Shown here piece by piece: positions 3,031 to 16,450 of a stretch of DNA of 22,016 nt; within the stretch, counting starts at the first letter, position 1, and every line of letters begins with the position of its first letter. Under the pieces are notes generated by a model, which searched no databases, was not told the DNA's origin, and saw only the letters and a list, made by a program, of their open reading frames with translations. The stretch comes from a virus, in IMG/VR virus record IMGVR_UViG_3300032050_000901, positions 1-22,016 of that record; one strand, 5' to 3'. The position numbers and the translations under genes are program-made.

Positions 3031-3331
3031 AAAAGGCGAAAGCGGAAATCCTAACGGAAGACCGAAAGGAGCAAAGAACAGAAGCACAATAGCACGTTAT
3101 TGGTTAGAGGTAAACCAAAACTTAAAGAACCCTTTAACAGGTGAAAGCGAAACAATGAGCCAAGAAGATTTAATGACTTTGGCACTAATCAAAAAAGCAC
3201 GTGAGGGTGATGTAAATGCATATAAAGCACTTATGGATAGTGGATACGGCGCACCTATTCAGCAAGTAGAACAAACAATAATCGAACAACCTTTATTTCC
3301 CGATGTTCAAGAGAACGACAGCAACGAATAA
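2996..3331 (+). CDS. Terminase small subunit-like protein (DUF5681)
   Basis: 111 residues. The N-terminus carries the signature FKKGESGNPNGRPKGAKNRST (residues about 11-31), diagnostic of the DUF5681 family, a basic DNA-binding-like segment that in phages and prophages usually lies directly upstream of the large terminase. A helical remainder follows, and the acidic C-terminus reads PLFPDVQENDSNE. By position and family it is the likely DNA-recognition subunit of the packaging motor. The last 29 nt overlap the large subunit gene, favouring coupled translation. The start ATG at 2996 follows the structured stretch by about 28 nt. Confidence 0.75.
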   Translation: MSAEDIKKHEFKKGESGNPNGRPKGAKNRSTIARYWLEVNQNLKNPLTGESETMSQEDLMTLALIKKAREGDVNAYKALMDSGYGAPIQQVEQTIIEQPLFPDVQENDSNE

Positions 3332-4463
3332 GATACTGAGTTTAAAAAAGCGAACAAAGATTATTCAAGGTGGTTCGTCGGCTTCGAAAACGTATTCTAT
3401 TTTAGCAGTATTAATTGACAAAGCTATAAAATACGCAAACACGGAAATAAGTATAGTTGCAGAAACAATACCTCACTTACGTAGAGGAGCATTGAAAGAC
3501 TGCATTAAAATCCTTAAATGGACAAACAGATACAACGATGACCAATTTAACAAATCGTTATTAACCTACACTTTTAAAAACGGGAGCTATTTAGAATTTT
3601 TCAGTGCTGATGACAGCTCTAAATTACGAGGTGCAAGGCGTGATATTCTCTACATAAACGAGTGTAATAACGTAACCTTTGAATCATACAACGAATTAGC
3701 CATACGTACAAAGAAAGAGATATACTTAGACTTCAACCCTGCCAATGAATTTTGGGTGCATAAGGAACTAAAAGGCGAATCAGACGCAGACTTTCTTATC
3801 TTAACATACAAAGACAATGAAGCTCTTGACAAGTCAATTATTGACCAATTAGAAAAGAATCGTTTAAAAGCAGAAACAAGCTCTTACTGGGCGAATTGGT
3901 GTCGTGTTTATCTTGATGGTGAAATAGGAATGTTAGAGGGTGTTATATTCTCGAATTGGAAGTCTATTGATAAATTACCTACCGAAGCTAAATTGATAGG
4001 AATTGGATTAGACTTTGGTTATACAAATGACCCTACGGCAGCAATTGAGATTTACAATTATAACGGAACACGGATACTCAATGAACTTGTATATCGAACA
4101 GGAATGTTAAACAGCGACATAGCTAAAATCCTGCCGAGCAACGTAGTTATTTATGCAGATAGTTCAGAACCTAAGTCAATAGACGAAATAAAACGCTATG
4201 GAAAGACGATTAAAGGTGTTACCAAAGGCAAGGACTCAATAAACTACGGAATTGATGTTATGCAACAACAGGAATATTTAGTTACGTCAAATAGCGTTAA
4301 TTTAATCAAAGAGTTAAGGGCTTATTGTTGGGACGTAGATAAAGCAGGAACACGATTAAATAAACCTATTGACACGAATAACCACGCTATTGATGCTTTA
4401 CGTTACCACGAAATGGAAACGTTAGGATTAAAGAAAAATTACGGCACATATAATATACGTTAA
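3303..4463 (+). CDS. terL: Terminase large subunit
   Basis: 386 residues with both motor and nuclease signatures of the Terminase_3 / PBSX-like type. Residues 23-30 (GGSSASKT) are a deviant Walker A. DILYINE at 114-120 is Walker B with the catalytic Glu at the end. YLDFNPANEFW at about 141-151 is typical of this branch. The C-terminal RNase H-like nuclease shows GLDFGY (D237), YADSSEP (D286) and NHAIDALRY (D364), the expected three metal-binding acids. It translocates DNA into the prohead and cuts it. The chosen ATG overlaps the small subunit gene by 29 nt and leaves a normal short N-terminus before Walker A. Confidence 0.93.
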   Translation: MFKRTTATNKILSLKKRTKIIQGGSSASKTYSILAVLIDKAIKYANTEISIVAETIPHLRRGALKDCIKILKWTNRYNDDQFNKSLLTYTFKNGSYLEFFSADDSSKLRGARRDILYINECNNVTFESYNELAIRTKKEIYLDFNPANEFWVHKELKGESDADFLILTYKDNEALDKSIIDQLEKNRLKAETSSYWANWCRVYLDGEIGMLEGVIFSNWKSIDKLPTEAKLIGIGLDFGYTNDPTAAIEIYNYNGTRILNELVYRTGMLNSDIAKILPSNVVIYADSSEPKSIDEIKRYGKTIKGVTKGKDSINYGIDVMQQQEYLVTSNSVNLIKELRAYCWDVDKAGTRLNKPIDTNNHAIDALRYHEMETLGLKKNYGTYNIR

Positions 4464-4642
4464 TGACAGATGACACACCGATAATGACCCGAGAAGTTGA
4501 GCATTACGTGTATATTCGGACGGGTAAACGTGTAAAGATAGTTTTTAATGATGCTCAAAGTATAAGAAAGCATTTAATCTTACTTGGTGAGGCGTATGCA
4601 GTTGCCGTGTACTACAATAATCAAAATAAAACGTTTAAATAA
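4463..4642 (+). CDS. Small hypothetical protein (59 aa)
   Basis: ATG at 4463 overlaps the terL stop (TAATG), and TAA ends it at 4642, 1 nt before the next ATG. The product begins MTDDTPIMTREVEHYVYIRT and contains a conserved-looking centre (GKRVKIVFNDAQSIRKHLILLGEAYAVAVYY) predicted as beta strand, helix, strand. The tight end-to-end placement supports a real cistron. Its last codons contain the AACGTTTA element that sits 14 nt before the next gene. I do not recognise the family. Confidence 0.65.
   Translation: MTDDTPIMTREVEHYVYIRTGKRVKIVFNDAQSIRKHLILLGEAYAVAVYYNNQNKTFK
4630..4637 (+). promoter_or_regulatory. AACGTTTA leader element before 4644
   Basis: AACGTTTA followed by exactly six bases and then ATG. 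The same 8-mer with the same spacing precedes the genes at 11784, 12958 and 16118. No purine-rich Shine-Dalgarno site is present, so it may act as a translation-initiation or mRNA-level signal; the role is inferred from repetition only. Confidence 0.5.
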
Positions 4643-4643
4643 T

Positions 4644-5387
4644 ATGAAGTTAGAATTAATCGTTCCAACAAAACTTAGTGAGATACCTTTAACGCACTAT
4701 CAAAAGTTTTTAGCAGTAGCACAAAAGACAAATGATGAGGTGTTTTTAGCTGAAAAAATGATTCAATGTTTTTGTGGTATTGAACTAAAAGACGTAGTTA
4801 AGATTCCATTTAAAGAAGTTGAAGCGTTAAGCGTACATTTTGCTACAATGTTTCAGCAAAAGACGGAATTTAAAAATAGATTTTCTATTTCAGGAACTGA
4901 ATTTGGTTTTATTCCTAATTTAGAGAATATGACTTGGGGTGAATACATAGACCTTGAGGCGAATATAAGCGATTTAAGCACGTTTCATAAAGCAATGGCG
5001 GTAATGTATCGTCCAATAGTAGAAAAACACGGAGACAAGTATAAAATAGAGCCTTATGTTTCTACTATAAACTATTCCGAGATTATGGAATTTGCTCCTT
5101 TAGATATAGCACTTTCTGCAAAGGTTTTTTTTTACAATTTAGAGAACGAGTTATTAAAGGCTACGCTTCATTATTTGGAGACGGAGATTCAGAAGAGCAA
5201 GGAGATGTCAACGATTATAGCGAAAGAACTCAATTTACAAAGCAATGGGGTTGGTATCAAAGCATATATGCAGCAGCTAAAGGAGACATCACAAAGTTTG
5301 ATGAAGTTACCAGACTTCCACTTACAAAAGCACTTACCTACCTTACTTTCGAAAAGCAACGAACAGAGATTGAACAACGTGAATTAA
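4644..5387 (+). CDS. Frameshifted tail-assembly-chaperone-like protein (0 frame)
   Basis: 247 residues from ATG 4644 (MKLELIVPTKLSEIPLTHYQKF). A GTG 60 nt upstream is in frame but lies inside the previous gene and adds a basic, unlikely extension. The N-terminal 163 residues include KMIQCFCGIELKDV, MTWGEYIDLEANISD and HKAMAVMYRPI, patterns I recall from a conserved protein located just after the terminase in Flavobacterium-type phages. At codons 161-163 (GTT TTT TTT) the gene crosses a run of nine T, where a -1 slip enters a second protein-like frame (5132-5407). The 0-frame end (YNLENELLKATLHYLETEIQKS...) also looks protein-like, so bases 5132-5387 may be dual coding. The two-product arrangement resembles lambda G/GT chaperones, but the tape measure lies about 4.5 kb further on. 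Confidence 0.75.
   Translation: MKLELIVPTKLSEIPLTHYQKFLAVAQKTNDEVFLAEKMIQCFCGIELKDVVKIPFKEVEALSVHFATMFQQKTEFKNRFSISGTEFGFIPNLENMTWGEYIDLEANISDLSTFHKAMAVMYRPIVEKHGDKYKIEPYVSTINYSEIMEFAPLDIALSAKVFFYNLENELLKATLHYLETEIQKSKEMSTIIAKELNLQSNGVGIKAYMQQLKETSQSLMKLPDFHLQKHLPTLLSKSNEQRLNNVN
5125..5133 (+). promoter_or_regulatory. Nine-T slippery site for -1 frameshift
   Basis: A run of nine T read in frame 0 as GTT TTT TTT TAC satisfies the X XXY YYZ rule (T TTT TTT) and allows full re-pairing after a -1 slip, which then reads TTA CAA. No strong stimulatory stem is obvious just downstream. Transcriptional slippage adding one T would have the same effect, as would a miscounted homopolymer in the assembly. 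Confidence 0.6.
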
Positions 5388-5407
5388 ATAGACAACTAAA
5401 AAAATAG
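5132..5407 (+). CDS. -1 frame domain of the chaperone-like protein
   Basis: This frame is open from 5045 to TAG at 5405-5407 and holds no ATG, GTG or TTG codon anywhere, so it needs frameshifting to be made. Joined at the T run it gives 91 residues, for a 254-residue fusion. Its content is clearly protein-like: GDGDSEEQ, then FTKQWGWYQSIYAAAKGD, then ITKFDEVTRLPLTKALTYL, then FEKQRTEIEQRELNRQLKK. The motif set (KWGWY.SIY.LA.GDI.KFDEVT plus a terminal coiled coil) is one I recall as a separately annotated small protein in related phages. The stop lies 2 nt before the next gene's ATG at 5410, as expected for a genuine cistron end. The 0 frame stops earlier, at 5387. Confidence 0.65.
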   Translation, partial: LQFRERVIKGYASLFGDGDSEEQGDVNDYSERTQFTKQWGWYQSIYAAAKGDITKFDEVTRLPLTKALTYLTFEKQRTEIEQRELNRQLKK

Positions 5408-5409
5408 AT

Positions 5410-5868
5410 ATGAGTTATTACGGAATATTAAACATTTTAAAATCTGAATTAGAAGCAACTAATTTAGTTACTACAGTTACCGAAGGTGATATCTTTCAAG
5501 TTGATTTATCTAAGCAGACTTTGTTTCCTTTGGCTCATATTATGGTAAACAACGCAACGTTTGAAAATAATGTTATTCGTTATAATATTTCTATTATTGC
5601 TATGGATGTAGTGGATATATCAAAAGACGAAACAACGGATATTTTTATAGGCAATGACAACGAGCAAGATGTATTAAATACTCAGATAACAATGTTGAAT
5701 CGTGTTTATGATAAATTAGTTCGTGGTAACTTCTTTACCAATTTAGGAATCATTGATGGTAACCCAACTTGTGAGCCATTTATAGAACGTTTTGAAAACA
5801 ATTTAGCAGGTTGGACAATGACGTTTGATTATTTAATAGGCAACGAAATGACGATATGTAATGAATAA
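5410..5868 (+). CDS. Tail terminator-like protein
   Basis: 152 residues. The pattern TVTEGDIFQVDLSKQTLFPLAHIMVNNATFENNVIRYNISIIAMD, followed by ETTDIFIGNDNEQDVLNTQ and ERFENNLAGWTMTFDYLIGNEMTIC, matches from memory a conserved family in the neck/tail block of Bacteroidota phages. The alternating beta strands, the length and the position just before an HK97-gp10-like gene suggest the tail terminator (lambda gpU-like) that caps the tail tube. That assignment rests on synteny and fold pattern, not on a diagnostic motif. It overlaps the next gene by 8 nt. Confidence 0.6.
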   Translation: MSYYGILNILKSELEATNLVTTVTEGDIFQVDLSKQTLFPLAHIMVNNATFENNVIRYNISIIAMDVVDISKDETTDIFIGNDNEQDVLNTQITMLNRVYDKLVRGNFFTNLGIIDGNPTCEPFIERFENNLAGWTMTFDYLIGNEMTICNE

Positions 5869-6370
5869 TCGAGAAGAAACATTAAAACGATTTATTCAGC
5901 ACGTAGTTAGTCAAGCCAAAAGAAACTTAACAACCTACGGTAAAAACGCTTCTAAGAAACTTTACAATTCAATTAAAGGCGAATCAAAGGCTTTTCCAAA
6001 TTCAATAGGTATTTACTTTGATATGGAGGAGTACGGATTTTATCAAGATAAAGGTGTTTCAGGAACTAAAAAGAAATATGATACGCCATTTAAATACACG
6101 AATAAGATGCCACCACCGAGTGCTTTTGATAAATGGACTATTCGTAAAGGTATTGCACCAAGAAAATCAGGCGGTCAATTTCAAACACGAAAAGGATTAA
6201 ACTTCGCTATTGCTCGTTCTATATTTGAGAAGGGAATAAAACCGAGTTTATTTTTTACAAAACCATTTGAAGCAGCATTTAAAAACTTGCCTGATGAAAT
6301 GATTGAAAGCTACGGATTAGACGTAGAGACTTTATTTAATGACATTATGAATCAAACATTTAAGAAATGA
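5861..6370 (+). CDS. HK97 gp10-like tail completion protein
   Basis: 169 residues. An N-terminal helix is followed by YFDMEEYGFYQDKGVSGTKK, a basic glycine loop (APRKSGGQFQTRKG) and GIKPSLFFTKPFEAAFKNLPDEM. The YG.Y.DKG motif and the late PS.FF..P...A.K segment are typical of the HK97-gp10 / minor tail or tail-completion family, which joins the neck to the tail. The gene overlaps its neighbours by 8 and 4 nt. The function fits the adjacent terminator-like gene; confidence in the family is moderate. Confidence 0.65.
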   Translation: MNNREETLKRFIQHVVSQAKRNLTTYGKNASKKLYNSIKGESKAFPNSIGIYFDMEEYGFYQDKGVSGTKKKYDTPFKYTNKMPPPSAFDKWTIRKGIAPRKSGGQFQTRKGLNFAIARSIFEKGIKPSLFFTKPFEAAFKNLPDEMIESYGLDVETLFNDIMNQTFKK

Positions 6371-7434
6371 GTATTTTCGCACGTTCACCCTTTATTGTAG
6401 AAATTTCAGAAACAGGACAAGAGGGTTCTAAAGTAGAATTGTTTTTATGGAATGGCACGGGAGCAGCACCTGCAAACCCTTCATATACTTTATCTAAATT
6501 AATACCTGCAGCAAACAACGTAAACACGTATTATAATATTTCACCTTACATCCGTGAATTTATATCATTTAACACAAGAGCAGAGATTTATAATACTTAC
6601 CCTGCAGCAACAAATGAGCAATGGTGTAATGTAATTTATAAAAGATACAAATTAGACGGAGGTGTTTATACTTTGCTTAATACAACAACTCAAAAAGCAT
6701 ACGATGGTTATGGCTATTATGAAGAGGGAACTAACCCTAATTTATTTTATGATATTTTACACGAACAAGGAACGTTTAATTATTACTATGATGGAACTAA
6801 CCCAAGTACAACATTAAGCAGAAGAGCAGGTTATGTTACCGTTTACGCACTAACTGGATATAAAGCTAAATATACTAATTTAAACACGGGAGCAACGTTT
6901 ACTCAAAACTTAACTAACGATAGATTTACAAACGTTCCAAGAGTTTACGCAAATTATTATGCTGACGGTAATAAATTAGAAATATTAGATAATTCAAATA
7001 TAACAATATGGACGGCTTATCTTGTTCCTAAACAGAATTGTAAATACGATGCCGTTTTATGTGACTTTGTAAATAAGTATGGGGCTTGGCAAAGAACGTG
7101 GTTTTATGCTACGTCAAATGATACCTATGCTTTTGAAAACTCGGAATACAATTTAATGCAATCTTCAATAACTAATTATAGCACTTTAGAAGGTCAAAGA
7201 AAAGTATTTAATACAACGGTTAAAAAAACAATCAAGGTAAACACGGATTGGGTTAAAGAAGACTACAAAGAATTGCTTAAACAACTTATGGCAAGTGAAA
7301 GGATTCTTATAAATAGCTTACCTGTAAAACTAAATACAAAATCAACTGAATTATTTAAATCCATAAATAACAAAACAATTAACTACCAATTAGAATTTGA
7401 GTTTGCATTTAATGGAATAAACAATGTAATATGA
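6367..7434 (+). CDS. Tail/baseplate structural protein
   Basis: 355 residues, Tyr-, Asn- and Thr-rich with alternating hydrophobics, consistent with an all-beta virion protein. It begins MSIFARSPFIVEISETGQEGSK and has a segment NISPYIREFISF typical, from memory, of a Bacteroidota phage structural family that precedes the large tail protein. The C-terminal part (about 230-355) includes KYGAWQRTWFYA and a repeated Lys/Thr stretch before ELLKQLMAS. Overlap of 4 nt with both neighbours. A distal-tail or baseplate role is inferred from its place between neck genes and the large 775-residue protein; no catalytic motif is seen. Confidence 0.65.
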   Translation: MSIFARSPFIVEISETGQEGSKVELFLWNGTGAAPANPSYTLSKLIPAANNVNTYYNISPYIREFISFNTRAEIYNTYPAATNEQWCNVIYKRYKLDGGVYTLLNTTTQKAYDGYGYYEEGTNPNLFYDILHEQGTFNYYYDGTNPSTTLSRRAGYVTVYALTGYKAKYTNLNTGATFTQNLTNDRFTNVPRVYANYYADGNKLEILDNSNITIWTAYLVPKQNCKYDAVLCDFVNKYGAWQRTWFYATSNDTYAFENSEYNLMQSSITNYSTLEGQRKVFNTTVKKTIKVNTDWVKEDYKELLKQLMASERILINSLPVKLNTKSTELFKSINNKTINYQLEFEFAFNGINNVI

Positions 7435-9758
7435 GACAAGTTCAAGTATATATTGAAGGTAATAGAATTGAATTATTTAACGATGAACAAATTCAGATTA
7501 CTTCAAGCGTTCAAAATATTTCAGACATATCAAAAGTATTTACCGACTTTTCTCAATCGTTTACCGTTCCTGCTTCAACTGTAAATAACGAGATATTTCA
7601 GCACTTTTACCAATCGGATGTAGATTCTACTATTGACCATAATATAAGACGTTCTGCTATCATTGAAATTGATTTAACGACGTTTAGACGTGGTAAAATA
7701 CAGATTGAAAAGGCGAATATAAAAGACGGGTTACCTGAAAACTATCAGTTAACGTTTTACGGAGAAATAAGAACATTAAAAGATGCCTTTGGAGAAGACA
7801 AATTAAATCAATTAGATTTAAGTTCTTTAGAGTTTCAATTTACTGCAGCTAATATTTACGATAGAATAACGGATTTAGCAACTGATTACGATGTTCGTTA
7901 CCCTTTAATAGCAAGTAATAGGCTTTGGACGTATCAACACGCAGGAGAAGACGTAACAAACACATCACACGCAATAAGTTTCGAGGAGTTGTTTCCTGCA
8001 GTTAAAGTAAGTAAGTTATTTGAAGCAATTGAATCGCAATATGGAATAACATTTACGGGTACATTTTTAACAGACCCGAGATTTACAAACGTGTTTTTGT
8101 ATGGTAAAAACTCAATCGAATATCAATACTTTACCGAAATATCGGATATTCTATTAGACCAAATTGTAGGTAGCCCAATAATTGAAGACCCTAACTTACC
8201 TAATCCAGGCGATTTAGCTTACATTGATATTTATGAAGACAAAATAAATATTATTCAAGCAGTTGGAGCAGTTGCACACGTAATAACTTTTGATGTTTTA
8301 AGCGTTTCAGTTGCAGGAACTTTCTACATAGAAGCGTATCAAGATGGTAATTACTATCAAACATTTACTGGCGATAGCAATGGAGTTATAGGGTTTATTC
8401 AAATAATAAATACAGCAGGATTAGACACTACATTAACATTTAAGTTAAAGGCAACGGATAATATGACCGTTGAGTTATTAATAACGTATCAAATACAAGG
8501 TGTAAATGGTTTAACTAATTACGCTCAAGTAAGCACCGTGCCAACGGTATTAACAGGAAACGTAAGTTTAAATAATACTTTGCCTGATATTAAAGTTTCA
8601 GATTTCTTTAGTGGTGTTTTAAAAGAGTTTAATGCAACTTGCGTAGGCGTAGATAAAGACGTATTCGAAATATTACCTTTAGACGATTGGTATCAAGAAG
8701 GGGCGATAGTAGATATAACCGAATATACGGACATTGATTCAATAGATGTAGAGCGTATTAAGTTATATAAGAAAATAGCTTTTAAATATCAGCAATCTGA
8801 AAGTTTTGTTAATAGGCAGTTCTTTAAATTAGCTAATACAGAATACGGAAACACGGAATATCAATTTGCTTATGATGGTAGCGAATACGTAATAGAAGTT
8901 CCTTTTGAAAACTTACTATTTACAAGAGCAGAAAAAACAAACACGCCGTCACAATATGCAATCTTTGGGTATTGCTTAAACGAAAACTATCAAGCATATA
9001 CGCCAAAACCAATTCTACTTTATTTGTATGGTTCAAGTGGTACGTTATCGCATAACATTAAATTCTTTAATGGAGCAAGTCACGACAATATTTCAAGTTA
9101 TGCTTTATTCGGTCAAGATTTAACTTACCAAAACACGAAATATAGTTTAAACTTTGGAGCAGAAAATTCAATTATTCACTTAGAGACTATTCAAAATGGT
9201 TTATATGCTGAGTATTATTTTCCGTATTTAATGAACCTTTATAACCTAAAGAATAGATTAACATACGTAAAGACGAACCTTCCCATTTCGCTTTTAACAA
9301 ACCTAAGATTAAACGATAGAGTAATAATAAGGGATAAGCGTTATATTATTAACGAAATGAAATCTAACTTAACAACAGGCGAAGTAAACTTTAGCTTGTA
9401 TTTAGATTTTAGACCAATGGATGGTGGTAAACCTATAACTATTACAAGTGATGCTCAATGTATAGATGTTAAAATACCTTTTATAAATGGTGCAATAAGT
9501 GCTACAATTACTACTTCATATTCAGGAGTTACAATAACACCGAGTACAATTACAAGTAGTCAAGCGGTTGAGGTGTGTGTACCTGCAAATGCAAATACAA
9601 CATCATTCTTATTAGCTGAAAACTCAGACTTTTTAATTACCGAAGAATTCCAAAACTTAATAACGGAAAATTCAACGACTCAAGTTATTACATTGGTAAT
9701 TACATACACATTTGCAAACGGAACGCAAGTCTATCAACAAATAATATTACAACAATGA
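7431..9758 (+). CDS. Large tail/baseplate hub-like protein
   Basis: 775 residues. The N-terminus (QVYIEGNRIELFNDEQIQITSSVQ, then ISKVFTDFSQSFTVPAST, then RRGKIQIEKANIKDG) is characteristic, from memory, of a large structural protein shared by Bacteroidota siphophages. It is followed by a long beta-rich body. Around residues 610-665 (LLTNLRLNDRVIIRDKRYIINEMKSNLTTGEVNFSLYLDFR) it resembles baseplate-hub-type endings, and the last 100 residues look like an Ig-like beta domain. It probably forms the tail tip or hub. No peptidase or lysozyme motif is seen. It overlaps a small gene by 4 nt. Confidence 0.65.
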   Translation: MRQVQVYIEGNRIELFNDEQIQITSSVQNISDISKVFTDFSQSFTVPASTVNNEIFQHFYQSDVDSTIDHNIRRSAIIEIDLTTFRRGKIQIEKANIKDGLPENYQLTFYGEIRTLKDAFGEDKLNQLDLSSLEFQFTAANIYDRITDLATDYDVRYPLIASNRLWTYQHAGEDVTNTSHAISFEELFPAVKVSKLFEAIESQYGITFTGTFLTDPRFTNVFLYGKNSIEYQYFTEISDILLDQIVGSPIIEDPNLPNPGDLAYIDIYEDKINIIQAVGAVAHVITFDVLSVSVAGTFYIEAYQDGNYYQTFTGDSNGVIGFIQIINTAGLDTTLTFKLKATDNMTVELLITYQIQGVNGLTNYAQVSTVPTVLTGNVSLNNTLPDIKVSDFFSGVLKEFNATCVGVDKDVFEILPLDDWYQEGAIVDITEYTDIDSIDVERIKLYKKIAFKYQQSESFVNRQFFKLANTEYGNTEYQFAYDGSEYVIEVPFENLLFTRAEKTNTPSQYAIFGYCLNENYQAYTPKPILLYLYGSSGTLSHNIKFFNGASHDNISSYALFGQDLTYQNTKYSLNFGAENSIIHLETIQNGLYAEYYFPYLMNLYNLKNRLTYVKTNLPISLLTNLRLNDRVIIRDKRYIINEMKSNLTTGEVNFSLYLDFRPMDGGKPITITSDAQCIDVKIPFINGAISATITTSYSGVTITPSTITSSQAVEVCVPANANTTSFLLAENSDFLITEEFQNLITENSTTQVITLVITYTFANGTQVYQQIILQQ

Positions 9759-9925
9759 TAAAGCAAATAATAGATATGTTAAAACTTGCTGACCACGTAG
9801 GATTTAGCGAGAATATAGAAATAGCCAAAGGAAAACACGAATTAAAAGACTCGGTTAGGGACATTTGGAAACAATCATTTAGAGAATTAAAAGTAAAACG
9901 CAATGGCAGAAAAAAGGGTAATTGA
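9755..9925 (+). CDS. Small conserved protein before tape measure (56 aa)
   Basis: ATG at 9755 overlaps the previous stop (ATGA), and TGA ends it at 9925, 23 nt inside the tape measure gene. The product MIKQIIDMLKLADHVGFSEN continues as a helical, basic segment (GKHELKDSVRDIWKQSFRELKVKRNG). I recall similar short proteins in the same position in Flavobacterium-type phages. The position immediately before the tape measure is where tail chaperones usually lie, so it may help tape-measure assembly; that is speculative. Confidence 0.65.
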   Translation: MIKQIIDMLKLADHVGFSENIEIAKGKHELKDSVRDIWKQSFRELKVKRNGRKKGN

Positions 9926-11771
9926 ATTAGAAATTCAAGATAATAGCAAAACACTTAAACAACAATATAAAGAAGCCGTTGTTGAATTACAACGTGTTGC
10001 ACAAGCATATGGTGAAACGTCTCAACAGGCAGCAGAAGCAGCTAAAAGAGCAGCGAGTTTAAAAGACCAAATAGAAGATACAAACGATGCTATCGCAGCA
10101 TTTAAAGGCGAAGGTGCATTTAATGCAGTTGGTAAAGCCGTTAGTTCTGTAGCAAGTGGTTTTAGTGCTGTTGAGGGTGCAATGGGTTTAGTAGGAGTAG
10201 AATCCGAAAAACTACAAGAAACTATGTTACGTGTTCAAAGTGCAATGGCTTTAGCACAAGGTTTAGAAAATTTAGAAGATGCAGGACGTGCTTTTAAACA
10301 ATTAGGAACGGTAGCCGTAAATGCATTAAAAGGAATTAGGGGTGCTTTAGCAGCTACGGGAATAGGTCTTTTTGTTGTTGCTTTAGGAACTGTTGTCGCT
10401 TATTGGGATGATATCAAGGCTGCGGTAAGTGGGGTAACTGCCGAACAAGAAAAACTAAACAAAATATCTAAAGCTAATTTCGAAACATCAAAAGCTGAAT
10501 TAGAAACATTAGATGCTCAAGATAACATTCTAAAGTTACAAGGGAAAAGCGAACGTGAAATTCTAAATCTAAAAATAGCCAAAGTAAACACGGCAATTGA
10601 ATTAGGAAAAGTTGAATTAAAGAATGTTATTCTAACGAGTAAAGCCGAAGAAGAAGCAGCAATTAAAAATTATAATCTAACTAAGCAAATAGTCGATTTT
10701 ATTTTAGACACGGCTTTATTCTTACCTAAGTTAATGTTGATGCCTATTGATATGGCTATTGCAGGTGCTAATAAAGTTTCTGAAGCGTTAGGTTTTGGAA
10801 AAGTCATTGCATTCGATATGGGTAAAACTATGCAAGATATGCAAGATAAGTTTAGCGGTTTTATTGCAGGTTCTATATTCAATGTTCCAGAGGTACAAGC
10901 TGAAGGTGAAAAAACACGAAAGGAACTTGAAAAACAACTAAAAGATTTAGAAAACCAAAAGGCAGGTTTCCAATTACAAGTAAAAGCAATAGATAAACAA
11001 GCTGTTGAAGACTCTAAAAAGAACCAAGAAGACGCATTAAGCGAAGAGGAACGTAAACAAAAAGAACATCAAGAGAAATATTTAAACGAAGATAGATTAA
11101 GAACCAAATCAGTTTTGGATGCTTCTAACCAAAGAATGTTACAAGAGCAAAGTGAAACTGAATTCCAAAGACAACAAAATGAATTAAAGGCAAAGTCTTA
11201 TGAAGAATATTTAGCAAAAATTGCTGCTAAAGATGCGGAAGACGCTGCAAGAAAAAAGAAGAATAGAGATTTTGCTATTGAAATGGCACAATCAGGGCTT
11301 TCAACTATTCAAACGCTTACTGAAATATTTGGTAAAAAATCGGAAAAGGCAGCACGAAATGCATTTAGAATAAATAAAGCTGCTCAAATAGCAAGTGCCA
11401 CAATGTCAACGTATCAAAGTGCTCAACAGGCTTATGCGTCTCAATTCGTTCCTTTTCCAGACCCATCTTCACCTATTAGGGGTGCTGTTGCTGCAGGTGC
11501 TGCGGTATTTGCAGGATTAGCAAACATAGCTAAAATTGCTTCTCAAAAATTCGAAGGCGGTGGTTCTACGGGAGGTGGTGGTGGTGCTCCAAGTGGTGGT
11601 GGTGGTGGTGCTCCACAAATGGCCGCTCCAAACTTTAGTATTATAGGTAGTTCGGGAATTAATCAATTAGCACAATTACAACAAACACCAACACAAGCTT
11701 ATGTAGTAAGTGGTGAAGTTACAACTGCACAAGCCTTAGATAGAAATAGGTTACAAAACGCAACATTATAA
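9903..11771 (+). CDS. Tail tape measure protein
   Basis: 622 residues, mostly Ala/Lys/Glu/Gln-rich helix. N-terminal coiled coil, residues about 10-80. A hydrophobic segment at about 147-170 (ALAATGIGLFVVALGTVVAYW) and a second at about 262-285 match the membrane-active patches of tape measures. A second long coiled coil spans about 330-450. A Gly-rich linker at about 551-572 precedes a conserved end YVVSGEVTTAQALDRNRLQNATL, a tail I recall in Bacteroidota tape measures. It sets tail length; at roughly 0.15 nm per residue the tail would be near 90-100 nm, an estimate only. It is short for the family, implying a modest tail. Confidence 0.85.
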   Translation: MAEKRVIELEIQDNSKTLKQQYKEAVVELQRVAQAYGETSQQAAEAAKRAASLKDQIEDTNDAIAAFKGEGAFNAVGKAVSSVASGFSAVEGAMGLVGVESEKLQETMLRVQSAMALAQGLENLEDAGRAFKQLGTVAVNALKGIRGALAATGIGLFVVALGTVVAYWDDIKAAVSGVTAEQEKLNKISKANFETSKAELETLDAQDNILKLQGKSEREILNLKIAKVNTAIELGKVELKNVILTSKAEEEAAIKNYNLTKQIVDFILDTALFLPKLMLMPIDMAIAGANKVSEALGFGKVIAFDMGKTMQDMQDKFSGFIAGSIFNVPEVQAEGEKTRKELEKQLKDLENQKAGFQLQVKAIDKQAVEDSKKNQEDALSEEERKQKEHQEKYLNEDRLRTKSVLDASNQRMLQEQSETEFQRQQNELKAKSYEEYLAKIAAKDAEDAARKKKNRDFAIEMAQSGLSTIQTLTEIFGKKSEKAARNAFRINKAAQIASATMSTYQSAQQAYASQFVPFPDPSSPIRGAVAAGAAVFAGLANIAKIASQKFEGGGSTGGGGGAPSGGGGGAPQMAAPNFSIIGSSGINQLAQLQQTPTQAYVVSGEVTTAQALDRNRLQNATL

Positions 11772-11777
11772 CGTTTA
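11770..11777 (+). promoter_or_regulatory. AACGTTTA leader element before 11784
   Basis: Second copy of AACGTTTA-N6-ATG. It overlaps the tape measure stop codon (TAA 11769-11771), so the element is mainly non-coding here, which argues against a purely codon-driven origin. Confidence 0.5.
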
Positions 11778-11783
11778 AAAATT

Positions 11784-12365
11784 ATGGATAAGAAAATAAT
11801 TGAGTTAATTATTGACGAGAACGATTTACAAACAGGAATCCACGCAGTTTCAGTAGTTCATTCACCTGCAATCGAAGAAAACTTTATTGCCCTTTCAAAA
11901 CACGAAATAGAACTAAAAGAAGTTGACGCAGAAAAGAAAATTTTAATGGGTGCAGCTTTAGTTCCTAACAAACAAATTTTAAGAGCAGACAAAGACGGGA
12001 AAGGGTATTACATCTATTTTAGCGAGGACACTATTAAAAAGGCTTCTGAATTGTTCTTAATGCGTTCAAATCAAAACAACGCTACGTTAGAACACAAAGA
12101 AAAATTAAACGGAATGAGTGTTGTTGAAAGTTGGGTAATTGACAATCCTGAAATGGATAAATCTAAAGAATACGGATTTAACTTACCCAAGGGAACTTGG
12201 ATGATAGCTATGAAAGTAAACAACGAGGATATTTGGAAGGACGTAAAAGCGGGTAAAGTTAAAGGCTTTTCAATAGAGGGTTACTTCGCTGATAAATACG
12301 AAATGAGCCAAGAGAAAAACGAAAAACAAGAAATAATTAATAAACTAAAAGAATTACTAAAATGA
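11784..12365 (+). CDS. XkdF-like prohead protease
   Basis: 193 residues. After an N-terminal segment (IHAVSVVHSPAIEENFIALSK) comes the XkdF / Peptidase S78_2 core: ILMGAALVPNKQILRAD at about 53-69, TLEHKEKLNG with His104, VVESWVID, and GTWMIAMKVNNEDIWKDVKAGKVKGFSIEGYF with Ser163 at the GxSxEG position. His104 and Ser163 are the likely catalytic pair of a Herpesvirus-type (S78-like) maturation protease that cleaves scaffold and capsid. Synteny with scaffold and capsid downstream agrees. The C-terminus is a Lys/Glu helix. It overlaps the next gene by 4 nt. Confidence 0.8.
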   Translation: MDKKIIELIIDENDLQTGIHAVSVVHSPAIEENFIALSKHEIELKEVDAEKKILMGAALVPNKQILRADKDGKGYYIYFSEDTIKKASELFLMRSNQNNATLEHKEKLNGMSVVESWVIDNPEMDKSKEYGFNLPKGTWMIAMKVNNEDIWKDVKAGKVKGFSIEGYFADKYEMSQEKNEKQEIINKLKELLK

Positions 12366-12718
12366 ACAAGTTAAACGACATCTTTAATAAGATTGCTAAA
12401 ATGGAGCAAAACGCTCAAGAAGTAAAGTTAGGAAAAGTTCAAGTTGAATTAGGTGTATTACAAGACATTGAAAAAGAATTAATAGCAGCAAATGCAGGGG
12501 CAATAAAGGCAATTGATTTAGCAAACGCAGCTAAAAAACCTGCTGAAACTTCATTAAAAGCAAATAAGGAATTACTTATTAAATTTCAAGACTTTGTCAA
12601 GCAAATTAAAGCGTTAGGAATAGAAGCACCACAAACAGAAGTTGAAAACGGAATAGTTCGAATAAAAGAAAATATAAAGGCTATTGAAAATCTTATAGGA
12701 AATTTAGCTAAAATTTAA
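12362..12718 (+). CDS. Coiled-coil head-assembly protein A
   Basis: 118 residues, almost entirely helical, with KLGKVQVELGVLQDIEKEL near residues 22-40 and FVKQIKALGIEAPQTEV near 78-94. These two blocks are mirrored in the protein at 12958 (KHEVELGSIDNLNKVLEEI and ISKQAKDLGVEIPANV), so the two look like diverged duplicates. Position between the protease and the scaffold suggests an internal or scaffold-like head protein; no known family is recognised with certainty. Confidence 0.65.
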   Translation: MNKLNDIFNKIAKMEQNAQEVKLGKVQVELGVLQDIEKELIAANAGAIKAIDLANAAKKPAETSLKANKELLIKFQDFVKQIKALGIEAPQTEVENGIVRIKENIKAIENLIGNLAKI

Positions 12719-12729
12719 AATAAACTAAA

Positions 12730-12921
12730 ATGTCAGAAAAAATACCAAGCCCAAAAGGTGGCAAAAGAGGTTGTCTATGTAAAGACGGAACTTACTCAAA
12801 GAAATGTTGTGACGGAAGTTTAGAAGCACAAGGAATAGGTAAAACAGCAGGTACAGGAACTAATGTTGTAAATCAAAGTGAAAACAACGGTGTTAGAACT
12901 ATCGTTCGGCAAAACGGATAA
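12730..12921 (+). CDS. Cys-rich small phage protein (63 aa)
   Basis: 63 residues with Cys at 15, 17, 26 and 27 in GGKRGCLCKDGTYSKKCCDG, followed by SLEAQGIG and a Gly/Thr/Asn-rich tail. The CLCKDGTYS.KCCDG...AQGIG motif is one I recall in small proteins and C-terminal modules of Bacteroidota phages; its function is unknown. It could be a metal- or disulfide-stabilised minor virion component. It lies between two paralogous coiled-coil genes, 11 nt after one and 36 nt before the other. Confidence 0.7.
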   Translation: MSEKIPSPKGGKRGCLCKDGTYSKKCCDGSLEAQGIGKTAGTGTNVVNQSENNGVRTIVRQNG

Positions 12922-12943
12922 AAAGGTAACAAGGTAAAATTTA

Positions 12944-12951
12944 AACGTTTA
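12944..12951 (+). promoter_or_regulatory. AACGTTTA leader element before 12958
   Basis: Third copy of AACGTTTA-N6-ATG, here in a fully intergenic 36-nt gap (12922-12957), so coding constraint cannot explain it. Confidence 0.55.
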
Positions 12952-12957
12952 ATAAAT

Positions 12958-13353
12958 ATGAACACGAGAAAAACAGTTTACAATAAGTTATTTACTGAAA
13001 AGACTGAGTTAGCAAAACACGAAGTTGAGTTAGGTTCAATAGATAACTTAAATAAAGTTTTAGAAGAAATTAAAGGGGCAGGGAGAAATGTTGCGGCAAC
13101 GGGTCGTAAATCAGTTAGTGCATTAGTAAATACAACTTTACCAATAATTGACACAACAAGAAAAAAAATCGAACAAGCTCGTAAAGATTACGATTTAATA
13201 TCAAAACAAGCTAAAGATTTAGGTGTTGAAATTCCTGCAAATGTTACGGCAAATTTAAAAGAAGCTATTGCAGAGGATAGCGACTTGTTTGAACTAAGAA
13301 AAGCAATTGAAAAATTCGAATTAAGTTATTTGGATTTAACTGATAATTTTTAA
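12958..13353 (+). CDS. Coiled-coil head-assembly protein B
   Basis: 131 residues, helical, with LAKHEVELGSIDNLNKVLEEI at about 18-38, an Ala/Thr-rich middle and KQAKDLGVEIPANV at about 83-96. It shares the first and last blocks with the protein at 12362, suggesting an old duplication. The motif KHEVEL also resembles KHEIEL in the protease at 11784. Position in the head block suggests an internal or scaffold-associated protein. The C-terminus (FELSYLDLTDNF) is acidic and aromatic. No enzyme motif is present. Confidence 0.65.
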   Translation: MNTRKTVYNKLFTEKTELAKHEVELGSIDNLNKVLEEIKGAGRNVAATGRKSVSALVNTTLPIIDTTRKKIEQARKDYDLISKQAKDLGVEIPANVTANLKEAIAEDSDLFELRKAIEKFELSYLDLTDNF

Positions 13354-13365
13354 TAAATAAGCAAA

Positions 13366-13953
13366 ATGAATACAAATCAAATCTTAAACAAAGTTCGTGT
13401 TTTACTTGGAATGGAAGTAAAGTTAGAGCAAATGAAGTTAGCGGATGGTGTAACAGTTATAGAAGCTGAATCATTCGAACCTGAAATGGAAGTTTTCGTA
13501 GTTACGGAAGATGAGCAAAAGATACCAGTTCCAGTTGGTGAATACGAAATGGAAGACGGACGTATTTTAGTTATTGAGGTTGAAGGTATCGTTAAAGAAG
13601 TGAAAGAGAAAATGGAAGAGGAAGTAGAAGTTGAAGCACCTGAGACTGAAACGGAAGTTGAAGTAGAAGCGAAAGAGGCTACAAACCCAACTCCAAAGAA
13701 AACTATCGAAAGCGTAGTTAAGGAATCTTTCTTTTCAGAAATCGAAGAACTTAAAAAAGAAAACGAAACTTTGAAAGCTGAACTTTCTGCATTGAAAAAC
13801 CCAACTATTGAAAACACGGAAGTAGAATTAAGCGAAGAGCCTAAGCCTATTTCTTTCAATCCTGAAAATGTAAACCCTGTTGAAATTACTAAAATAGCTT
13901 CAAAAAGAGGACGTACAATTATGGATTCAGTAATGAGTAAAATAAACAAATAA
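13366..13953 (+). CDS. Capsid scaffolding protein
   Basis: 195 residues. An N-terminal block (KVRVLLGMEVKLEQMKLADGVTVIEAESFEPEMEVFVVTEDEQKIPVPVGEYEMEDGRILVI) forms a small beta-like domain that I recall from scaffolds of Bacteroidota phages. Then comes a very acidic Glu/Val-rich low-complexity stretch at about 80-110, a coiled coil (EIEELKKENETLKAELSALK) and a basic end (IASKRGRTIMDSVMSKINK), as expected for a scaffold whose C-terminus contacts the capsid protein. It lies directly before the decoration and capsid genes. The long open frame on the opposite strand here is a composition artefact. Confidence 0.75.
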   Translation: MNTNQILNKVRVLLGMEVKLEQMKLADGVTVIEAESFEPEMEVFVVTEDEQKIPVPVGEYEMEDGRILVIEVEGIVKEVKEKMEEEVEVEAPETETEVEVEAKEATNPTPKKTIESVVKESFFSEIEELKKENETLKAELSALKNPTIENTEVELSEEPKPISFNPENVNPVEITKIASKRGRTIMDSVMSKINK

Positions 13954-13973
13954 TAATTTAAAAACAAAAAAAA

Positions 13974-14396
13974 ATGAGTACAACTTTAGTTTCTATCTCG
14001 AATGATCCACTACGCCAATTAGAGGTAGTAGAAAACATTACGGGAGCAATTACTTTGGACGCTGAGGATTCAGGCAAAGTATTTATCTTAAAAGCTGCTA
14101 CAGGAGCGCAAATTACACTTCCTGCTGTTGCTTCATCTGCTGGACATAACTACCGATTTATCGTAGGTCAATTGTTCGCTACAACTGCTTGGACAATTAA
14201 AGCAGCTTCAAACGTTATTCAAGGTGGTGTTAATGTTAATAGCGTTAATGTACCTGGAGCGGACGAAAACACAATTACATTCGCACACGCTGCTGACACT
14301 GTAGGTGATTTCGTAGAATTAAAATGTGATGGTACAAATTGGTATGTTTCAGGACTTGGAACTGCTTCGGGTGCAATTACTTTAACTGTAGTTTAA
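13974..14396 (+). CDS. Putative capsid decoration protein
   Basis: 140 residues, beta-rich, Ala/Thr/Val-rich, with no Lys-rich helices. The order NITGAITLDAEDSGKVFILKAATGAQITLP, HNYRFIVGQ, WTIKA and TNWYVSGLG is typical of small beta-sandwich proteins that decorate phage heads. It precedes the major capsid gene by 19 nt, the usual place for decoration proteins. Codon choice (GCT, ACT, TTC, AAC) resembles that of the capsid gene and differs from earlier genes, suggesting high expression. The leader is A-rich with no Shine-Dalgarno site. A fibre-like or other beta-rich role cannot be excluded. Confidence 0.6.
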   Translation: MSTTLVSISNDPLRQLEVVENITGAITLDAEDSGKVFILKAATGAQITLPAVASSAGHNYRFIVGQLFATTAWTIKAASNVIQGGVNVNSVNVPGADENTITFAHAADTVGDFVELKCDGTNWYVSGLGTASGAITLTVV

Positions 14397-14415
14397 TATT
14401 TAAAAAATTTATAAA

Positions 14416-15372
14416 ATGAGTACAACAAGTTCAATTACTACTACTTACGCTGGTGAATTCGCAGGTAAGTACATTGCGGCTGCTTTATTAAGCGCACCAA
14501 CTTTAGAAAAAGGCGGAATTACAATTTTGCCTAACGTTAAGTACAAACAAGTTATCAAACGAGTAGCTACTGACGATATTATTAAAAACGCTACTTGCGA
14601 TTTTGACCCAACTTCAACAGTTACTTTGACTGAAAGAGTATTGCAGCCTGAATCATTCCAAGTTAACTTACAACTTTGTAAGCAAGACTTTAGAGCAGAT
14701 TGGGATGCTATCCAAATGGGTTACTCTGCATTTGATGTTTTGCCTAAGTCTTTTGCTGATTTCTTAATCGCACACGCTGCTGAGAAAGTTGCTGCAGGAA
14801 TGGAAACTTCAATTTGGAGGGGTGTTAATGCAACTGCAGGACAATTTGCAGGAATTATGACTCAATTAACTACTGACGCTGCTTTACCTGCTGCTCAGGA
14901 AATCCCTGCTGTTGGTGGTGGTGTTACTGCTTCAAACGTTATCGCTGAATTAGGTCTTATCGTTGACGCTTTACCGTCTGCTCTTTACGGAAAAGAAGAT
15001 TTAGTTCTTTATGTTTCTAACAACATTTACAGAGCTTACGTTCGTGCATTGGGTGGTTTTGCTGCTTCAGGTGTTGGTGCTAACGGTTACGATAACAAAG
15101 GAACAAACCAAGTATTGGGTGACCTTTACTTTGACGGTGTTAAGATTTTCTTAGCTAACGGACTTGCTGCTAACACTGCGCTTCTTTCTCAAACTTCTAA
15201 CTTGTTCTTTGCAACTGGTTTGATGAATGATATGAACGAAGTTAAGGTTATCGATATGGGTGACATTGATGGAAGCCAAAACGTAAGAGTAGTTATGCGA
15301 TTTACTGCTGACGCTAAATATGGTTTTGCTTCTGACTTAGTTACTTACGGTATCACAAACTCTGCTAACTAA
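14416..15372 (+). CDS. Major capsid protein
   Basis: 318 residues. The N-terminus (TTYAGEFAGKYIAAALLSAPTLEKGGITILPNVKYKQVIKRV), then CDFDPTSTVTLTERVLQPESFQVNLQLCKQDFRADWDAIQMG, is a strong match from memory to HK97-fold major capsid proteins of Bacteroidota siphophages. The later part has ENGY-like loops (GANGYDNKGTNQVLG) and a typical C-terminal strand set (VRVVMRFTADAKYGFASDLVTYG). Codons are shifted to GCT, ACT, AAC and TTC, as in abundant proteins. A strong intrinsic terminator follows 21 nt after the stop, closing the scaffold-decoration-capsid group. Confidence 0.88.
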   Translation: MSTTSSITTTYAGEFAGKYIAAALLSAPTLEKGGITILPNVKYKQVIKRVATDDIIKNATCDFDPTSTVTLTERVLQPESFQVNLQLCKQDFRADWDAIQMGYSAFDVLPKSFADFLIAHAAEKVAAGMETSIWRGVNATAGQFAGIMTQLTTDAALPAAQEIPAVGGGVTASNVIAELGLIVDALPSALYGKEDLVLYVSNNIYRAYVRALGGFAASGVGANGYDNKGTNQVLGDLYFDGVKIFLANGLAANTALLSQTSNLFFATGLMNDMNEVKVIDMGDIDGSQNVRVVMRFTADAKYGFASDLVTYGITNSAN

Positions 15373-15393
15373 TCAAACTAACAACTAATACGA

Positions 15394-15422
15394 GGGTGGT
15401 GAAATAAACACCACCCTTTTTT
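15394..15422 (+). terminator. Intrinsic terminator after major capsid gene
   Basis: GGGTGGTG (15394-15401) pairs perfectly with CACCACCC (15409-15416) across a 7-nt A-rich loop and is followed by TTTTTT. This is a textbook rho-independent terminator on the + strand. Confidence 0.92.
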
Positions 15423-15447
15423 GTTAAACATTAAAAAATAAAAAGAT

Positions 15448-16023
15448 ATGAGCTGCGATATAGCACACGGAAGATTAGAAGCTTGTAAAGACGGCGTAAG
15501 CGGTTTAGATGCTATCTATATTATTAACTACGGGGATTTTAACCCAGACCCTTCAACATTGGGCGGCGACGTTACCTACTCGGTAGCTGCTGGATATGAA
15601 GATACTATTTCAGATATTGCGAATGTTTCAAGCATTTACAAATTTGAATTGAAAGGTGCTAACTCTTTTGAGCAAACTATTCAGTCTTCAAGAGACAATG
15701 GAACTACTTTCTTTGAGCAAGTTTTAACAGTACAATTGAAAAAACAAGACGTACAAACGCACAAAACAATTAAATTGTTAGCTTACGGACGCCCACACAT
15801 TATTGTAAGAACACGTGATAATAATTTCTTTATTGCAGGACTTCAAAGAGGATGTGATGTAACTGCAGGAACTGTTTCTTCGGGAACTGCAATGGGTGAT
15901 TTTAATGGTTATTCTTTAACGTTTACAGGAATGGAAAACTTACCTGCTAACTTCTTGAATACTTCATCTGAAAGCGATTTAGCTGCAACTATTTTGAACG
16001 GAGCTACAATTGTAGATTCATAG
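15448..16023 (+). CDS. Major tail tube protein
   Basis: 191 residues. The pattern MSCDIAHGRLEACKDGVSGLDAIYIINYGD, later YKFELKGANSFEQTIQSSRDNGTTFFEQVLTVQLKKQD, then KLLAYGRPHIIVRTRDNNFFIAGLQRGCDVTAGTVSSGTAMGD and SLTFTGMENLPANF, matches from memory the tail-tube/major tail family of Bacteroidota siphophages. Strand-rich content and size agree. It has its own terminator 28 nt downstream, as expected for a highly expressed virion protein. It is separated from the other tail genes by the head block, an unusual position. Confidence 0.78.
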   Translation: MSCDIAHGRLEACKDGVSGLDAIYIINYGDFNPDPSTLGGDVTYSVAAGYEDTISDIANVSSIYKFELKGANSFEQTIQSSRDNGTTFFEQVLTVQLKKQDVQTHKTIKLLAYGRPHIIVRTRDNNFFIAGLQRGCDVTAGTVSSGTAMGDFNGYSLTFTGMENLPANFLNTSSESDLAATILNGATIVDS

Positions 16024-16050
16024 ACACTTTCTGTTTCTCCATAGATTAAG

Positions 16051-16076
16051 ACCCTGCCAATTATGGTGGGGTTTTT
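16051..16076 (+). terminator. Intrinsic terminator after tail tube gene
   Basis: ACCCTGCCA (16051-16059) pairs with TGGTGGGGT (16064-16072) over nine positions, two of them G-U, with an ATTA loop and a five-T tail. A good + strand rho-independent terminator. Confidence 0.85.
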
Positions 16077-16103
16077 CTATTTTAGAAACAAGAACACGAA
16101 TTG

Positions 16104-16111
16104 AACGTTTA
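16104..16111 (+). promoter_or_regulatory. AACGTTTA leader element before 16118
   Basis: Fourth copy of AACGTTTA-N6-ATG, in the gap between the tail-tube terminator and the next gene. Since it follows a terminator, the gap may also hold a promoter, but I see no clear TAnnTTTG box in it. Confidence 0.55.
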
Positions 16112-16117
16112 TAATAT

Positions 16118-16450
16118 ATGAACATATTAACAACAACGACAGACCCGCAGAACTTGAATATAGTTCCACGTTCGGTAACGTTTGATGAGTTGATATTTAC
16201 GGACGATAGTACAAATACACCCGAGATAATTACAATTAACTCAGTAACGAGTAAAGGGTATTACCAACAGATAGAAATCGAATGCGCTTTAACAGAAAAC
16301 CATTACTACAACGTAGAATTATTTAACAACGGAGATTTAGTGTTTAGAGGTAAGGTATTTTGTACTGACCAACCCGTAGTTAGTTTTTCGGTTAATAATG
16401 GTGATTACACAAGCCACACAAGTGGAAACGAATTTATAGTTTATGAATAA
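16118..16450 (+). CDS. Small structural protein upstream of portal
   Basis: 110 residues, beta-rich. The start MNILTTTTDPQNLNIVPRS, then YYQQIEIECALTENHYYNVELFNNGDLVFRGKVFCTDQPVVSFSVNNGDY and a C-terminal FIVYE, fits a short family I recall next to portals of Bacteroidota phages. A small head-vertex or tail protein is possible; no function is established from the sequence. It begins 41 nt after the tail tube terminator and overlaps the portal gene by 8 nt. Confidence 0.65.
   Translation: MNILTTTTDPQNLNIVPRSVTFDELIFTDDSTNTPEIITINSVTSKGYYQQIEIECALTENHYYNVELFNNGDLVFRGKVFCTDQPVVSFSVNNGDYTSHTSGNEFIVYE

Follow-up and report, generated by a model that had tools for sequence, protein, structure and literature searches.

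The gene that follows terL in the 22,016-nt virus record analysed here (the whole stretch is called the window) is, by a slight preference on comparative grounds, a tail-block gene programmed for two products, in which slippage of RNA polymerase on a run of nine T would give rise to a chaperone-like pair of proteins. The plain reading would yield a protein consisting of a helical N domain and a 0-frame tail. RNA polymerase would slip on T9, so that a minor share of the messages gains one U, and these messages, translated normally into the -1 frame, would yield a second protein with a C domain marked by the motif WGWY. The known cases of recoding thus gain a large family, left unannotated by the databases searched, with 342 loci that share one conserved run.

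Gene layout and slip site

The first-pass annotation had described a -1 frame without a start codon that is reached at the T run and gives a product of 254 aa versus 247 aa unshifted. All of its coordinates were re-checked on the letters of the window and all held. The features that bear on the gene are as follows.

3303..4463, + strand: terminase large subunit, upstream (Pfam Terminase_3, Terminase_3C)
4644..5387, + strand: 0-frame gene, ATG to TAA, 247 aa, N domain and 0-frame tail (48 IMG/VR homologues at 76-100% identity)
5045..5407, + strand: -1 frame, stop to stop, with no ATG, GTG or TTG
5125..5133, + strand: slip site, nine-T run (T9 in 96, T10 in 12 and T8 in 1 of 109 homologue clusters)
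5126..5132, + strand: T_TTT_TTT heptamer in the 0-frame phase within T9 (codons GTT TTT TTT TAC)
5132..5407, + strand: C domain of the -1 frame (LQFRERV...KQWGWYQSIYAAAKGD...), 91 aa after the slip, with the third-position signature of the -1 frame
5139..5183, + strand: dual-coded stretch, 0 frame still constrained according to positional entropies, helix ELLKATLHYLE
5410..5868, + strand: next gene, 152 aa, its start adjoining the stop of the -1 frame (PHROG 30964, unknown function)
9903..11771, + strand: tail tape-measure protein (PHROG 3336 and others)

The -1 frame is bounded by TAA at 5042-5044 and TAG at 5405-5407, the latter ending two bases before the ATG at 5410, and the 254-aa product corresponds to join(4644..5132,5132..5407). 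The product of the 0-frame gene matches PHROG 32199, a family of unknown function. Across the run and beyond it, the 0-frame codons are GTT TTT TTT TAC AAT TTA. The site had been called a bare homopolymer; it is an uninterrupted T9, but it also contains a canonical slippery heptamer, since T_TTT_TTT lies in the 0-frame phase and follows the X_XXY_YYZ pattern of -1 programmed ribosomal frameshifting. No other T run longer than six occurs in the whole window, and T9 and the two frames recurred in each of the 48 close IMG/VR relatives (76-100% identity) over whatever length their contigs covered; the arrangement is therefore not due to chance.

Conservation of the T run and of both frames

Homologue searches were keyed on the downstream WGWY region and not on the T run, and yielded 344 usable loci in 278 distinct neighbourhoods and 109 clusters. 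In 342 of the 344 loci, an unbroken run was followed by the WGWY C domain in the -1 frame. Both exceptional loci belong to the same Dysgonomonas prophage and have T10, which gives a single-frame reading. Nearly all clusters thus carry nine or ten T (108/109), and the run was found in all three codon phases. Nine to ten T are kept in the phase 3 lineages (L165, L207, L052 and L053), in which T lost at the 5' side are offset by T gained at the 3' side, and in phase 1 (L159). The T8 lineage comprises L232, L235, L236 and L237, with the codons TCG TCT TTT TTT TAC.

If the true run were T10, the two frames would be a single ORF broken by a sequencing or assembly error. One of two prophage copies in Dysgonomonas sp. 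520 does have T10 and reads through in one frame, and the distant relatives described below are single ORFs. However, hundreds of independent contigs and a cultured phage have T9, and the 0 frame past the run is constrained and kept open. We regard an error as extremely unlikely, and this explanation was rejected.

The two gene copies of Dysgonomonas sp. 520 (L051 and L053), one frameshifted with T9 and the other a single ORF with T10, are either a natural pair or the result of a homopolymer error. In a draw of 396 genomes from the phylum of Dysgonomonas, the domain was seen solely in Dysgonomonas. The carriers are a large group of mostly uncultured phages, probably of Bacteroidota, and the window would have its host in the same group, as judged from relatives (Nonlabens, Dysgonomonas and Prevotella).

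The distribution of substitutions was analysed in 27 relatives. Upstream of the run, 63% of substitutions fell at 0-frame position 3, and in the overlap the largest class (45%) fell at 0-frame position 2, which is position 3 of the -1 frame. Along the gene, the signature was that of the 0 frame up to 5138 and in 5139-5183 (positional entropies of 0.18/0.22/0.40 at 0-frame codon positions 1/2/3), mixed in 5184-5228 and that of the -1 frame from 5229 onward. Therefore, just past the run it is the 0 frame that is constrained, and farther on the -1 frame codes for protein.

The 0 frame overlaps the second frame over 18-92 codons among relatives of the window. Its extension had an observed median of 66 codons, versus 38 after synonymous codons of the -1 protein were resampled; in L002, a close relative with the same anatomy as the window, the extension was 86 codons observed versus 27 resampled. 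Further, the stop of the -1 frame overlaps the start of the next gene as ATGA in 182 of 338 relatives. These comparisons show that the second frame, as read from substitution patterns, is a real protein and that both frames are under selection. The earlier proposal of two products from one start, with the frames joined at the T run, agrees with the -1 arrangement, which 342 of 344 loci share, and the homologue alignment that it had called for showed both frames and the run conserved.

In 92 of 109 clusters, the +1 frame was closed by a stop four codons past the run. This stop was considered as a separate signal and rejected; we make no claim on it because it is accounted for by coding constraint, namely F[RK] in the -1 frame together with L in the 0 frame.

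Relatives with split or single reading frames

The C domain could be a stand-alone protein made by internal initiation or reinitiation, as GenBank implies for one relative, Nonlabens phage P12024L, in which gp41 is annotated from an internal ATG; a TTG also lies directly 3' of the run in many relatives. This reading is very unlikely. Neither ATG nor GTG precedes WGWY in the -1 frame of 304 of 342 loci, and the window likewise has none. Conservation includes the FFLxFR segment, which lies ahead of any start, and distant homologues have the C domain fused to the N domain. A separate start, which the first-pass annotation had named as a possible refutation, was accordingly rejected on the basis of the 304 loci.

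P12024L is a cultured phage whose gene is 29% identical to that of the window. It has the codons CTT TTT TTT TAT, thus T9, followed by the same -1 domain. GenBank splits the locus into gp40 and gp41, and the conserved -1 frame reaches upstream past the gp41 ATG to the T run. At this locus (L049:5001-5695), gp40 and gp41 appear as two halves of one frameshift product, which links PHROG 32199 and PHROG 38404. These families (P12024L/S gp40 and gp41) are homologous to the N and C parts of the window gene and share its T9, but are catalogued as two separate unknown families with the join unannotated. The annotation of PHROG 32199 and 38404 may be corrected to two halves of one product. The C domain has been missed by automatic gene callers.

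Distant homologues with both domains in one ORF (259-301 aa) were found in cultured phages, namely Flavobacterium phages FPSV-F7 and laban6-1, Cellulophaga phage Ingeline, Polaribacter phage Leef and Microcystis phage Mea-Yong924-1. PHROG 25418, which contains the Duneviridae protein of 293-301 aa (FPSV-F7, laban6-1 and Ingeline) and also those of Leef and Mea-Yong924-1, has the same order of N then C domain as the window; unlike the window gene, its members are continuous ORFs without a slip run. These single-frame fusions show, at the level of encoded sequence, that the N and C domains form one protein. Since a continuous ORF yields only the long form, two products are not needed in all distant relatives.

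The N domain is further linked to Flavobacterium phage 6H (Foldseek E=3.8e-4; hhalign probability 74.7%). The 6H homologue (L363:10352-10927, minus strand) is annotated as 191 aa, and close relatives align over residues 1-186. Its C domain is unannotated and lies downstream in a different frame behind a stop; the FPSV-F7 counterpart is a continuous ORF of 293 aa.

Slippage by RNA polymerase or by the ribosome

The earlier description of a -1 slip stands in that the frames join at the run; run-length conservation, however, favours slippage of RNA polymerase over that of the ribosome. Slippage that adds one extra U is, on the comparative evidence, a reasonably probable route to the -1 frame, because the conserved feature is an uninterrupted stretch of 9-10 T and not the heptamer, because run length is kept in any phase, because T_TTT_TTC is never present and because no RNA stimulator is visible. 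RNA polymerase slippage is efficient at 9 A/T, and the RNA-DNA hybrid is 9-10 bp (PMC5009743). On A/T runs, insertion of a single base is the commonest slip (PMC5574713), and one inserted U leads to the -1 frame. Transcriptional slippage is expected to go with a conserved A/T homopolymer of about 8-9 or more without interruptions, and T9 or T10 in any phase agrees with this in all clusters except one. The one lineage with T8 only counts against it and forms a useful natural test of the run-length requirement.

Alternatively, the ribosome itself would shift to -1 on U_UUU_UUU, by conventional programmed frameshifting of the kind seen in lambda G/GT, and the extra T's would be a by-product of the conserved hydrophobic residues around FF. 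The run is indeed partly fixed by amino acids, with hydrophobic V or L before FF and L or F next in the -1 frame. The heptamer is in the right phase in the window, and U_UUU_UUU is among the E. coli motifs that shift at >0.1% without a stimulator (PMC4066793). A stimulator is dispensable in some tailed-phage shifts, and the known chaperone shifts are all ribosomal. We hold this alternative to be possible but somewhat doubtful, for the following reasons.

In the standard phase, replacing the T in the third position of the second Phe codon with C leaves both encoded proteins as they are (TTC; CTA/CTG Leu) and retains T_TTT_TTC. Ribosomes of E. coli slip more on U_UU.C than on U_UU.U, and IS elements naturally use U_UUU_UUC (PMC4066793); a ribosomal site is therefore not expected to exclude TTC. 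This third base was T in 58 of 58 standard-phase clusters, versus 20-32% TTC at other conserved Phe columns, and neither T_TTT_TTC nor any other alternative heptamer was found among the 109 clusters, which are related sequences and not independent draws. Control Phe-Phe pairs in the same loci were written TTTTTT in 161 of 391 cases, and 5 of the 391 belonged to runs of nine or more. The purely ribosomal reading is lowered by this test of the T8 position (third base, second Phe codon), at which the missing heptamer would be permitted, synonymous and at least equally slippery in E. coli. The ribosome and polymerase parameters used in this comparison are those of E. coli, T. thermophilus and Buchnera, not of Bacteroidota.

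Retention of 9-10 T despite a change of phase, in the four phase 3 lineages and in L159, also stands against the ribosomal reading, as does the result of the stimulator search. A downstream stimulator is a common, but not universal, element of -1 programmed ribosomal frameshifting, and the sequence downstream of the run showed neither a conserved RNA structure nor one of unusual stability (consensus energy of -1.07 kcal/mol, no compensatory pairs, z-scores of about 0). Further, Rfam and tRNA scans of the window gave no matches.

Thus, the persistence of nine or ten T in nearly every lineage points to RNA polymerase, and not the ribosome, as the determinant of the product ratio. Both mechanisms could contribute, because a -1 ribosomal slip on U_UUU_UUU yields the same 254-aa protein. 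The closest known systems for polymerase slippage are dnaX of Thermus thermophilus and spa13, spa33 and mxiA of Shigella, in which, as in the window, about nine uninterrupted A/T within a gene open a second frame and one inserted base leads to -1. Unlike the phage gene described here, these cases of dnaX and of type III secretion are host or plasmid genes.

Relation to tail assembly chaperones

We consider a role like that of the tail assembly chaperones G/GT a little more probable than not, by analogy with their two-product logic and position. Like lambda G/GT and the HK97-type chaperones, the window gene has a shared start, a putative minor -1 extension that adds a C domain, and a location in the tail block. 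Comparative evidence is consistent with two products that begin at one start codon and diverge where the frame changes late in the first ORF, as in G/GT. By this analogy, the short form is inferred to be abundant and the long form minor; the former would bind the tape measure, and the latter would bring in tail-tube subunits via its C domain.

The window gene differs from lambda G/GT in having no detectable homology of sequence or fold, in the 18-92 codons over which the two frames overlap among its relatives, and in the T9/T10 slip site, where the polymerase rather than the ribosome would probably slip. It differs also in position: G/GT lie between the major tail protein and the tape measure and adjoin the latter, whereas the gene described here comes after terL and the tape measure is 4.5 kb downstream. 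The first-pass annotation had placed the gene far from the tape measure. The distance of about 4.5 kb bears this out, although the tail block does include the gene. Its comparison with tail assembly chaperones stood as to the two products and failed as to homology.

No function for either domain was obtained from Pfam, PHROGs or PDB, and no homology to known chaperones was detected by Pfam, PDB sequence, Foldseek PDB or PF10109 searches. AlphaFold models were helical and of moderate confidence (mean pLDDT of 75.5 and 70.5); an alignment of a natural fusion with separate N and C rows was misaligned and was left out of folding. The best chaperone-labelled match in Foldseek BFVD had E=0.25, and BFVD matches were otherwise mostly unnamed phage relatives. 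The gene may thus work like G/GT, while its membership of the G/GT families is unsupported by homology.

The same two-product gene might instead encode another morphogenesis factor, for example a two-isoform chaperone for head-tail joining or tail completion, which we take to be a serious possibility short of probable. It accords with the lack of matches to chaperone families or folds, with a gene placed after terL instead of after the major tail protein, and with single-ORF relatives that yield only the long form. The two-product logic and the tail-block position resemble G/GT, however (in Ingeline, the PHROG 25418 gene is upstream of the tape measure, two or three genes away), and no alternative chaperone candidate is visible in the window. 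We retain the G/GT-like role as the preferred reading.

Published tail-chaperone cases are ribosomal slips at about 3-10%. In the open-access literature searched, we found no finding that combined a tail assembly chaperone with transcriptional slippage and no transcriptional slippage of the tail-chaperone type in a phage. It is conceivable, and we put it forward tentatively, that a tail-chaperone-type pair of a widespread phage lineage has its ratio set in the message, through polymerase slippage on a run about as long as the RNA-DNA hybrid (9-10), and not through ribosomal frameshifting. The family offers a clean natural comparison of ribosomal and transcriptional slippage for the same job.

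Genome neighbourhood

The order of modules over 3303-18203 is unusual: the tail block extends to the tape measure and is followed by a protease at 11784, a gene at 14416 that we take, from its position, to be MCP-like, and a portal at 16443. Upstream, the stretch 1566-2911 encodes a protein with a ParB N domain and, after it, a Mom-like DNA modification protein (Pfam Mom E=2.5e-43). The Mom-like gene contains nine consecutive A at 2467-2475, which could be a second slip-prone site.
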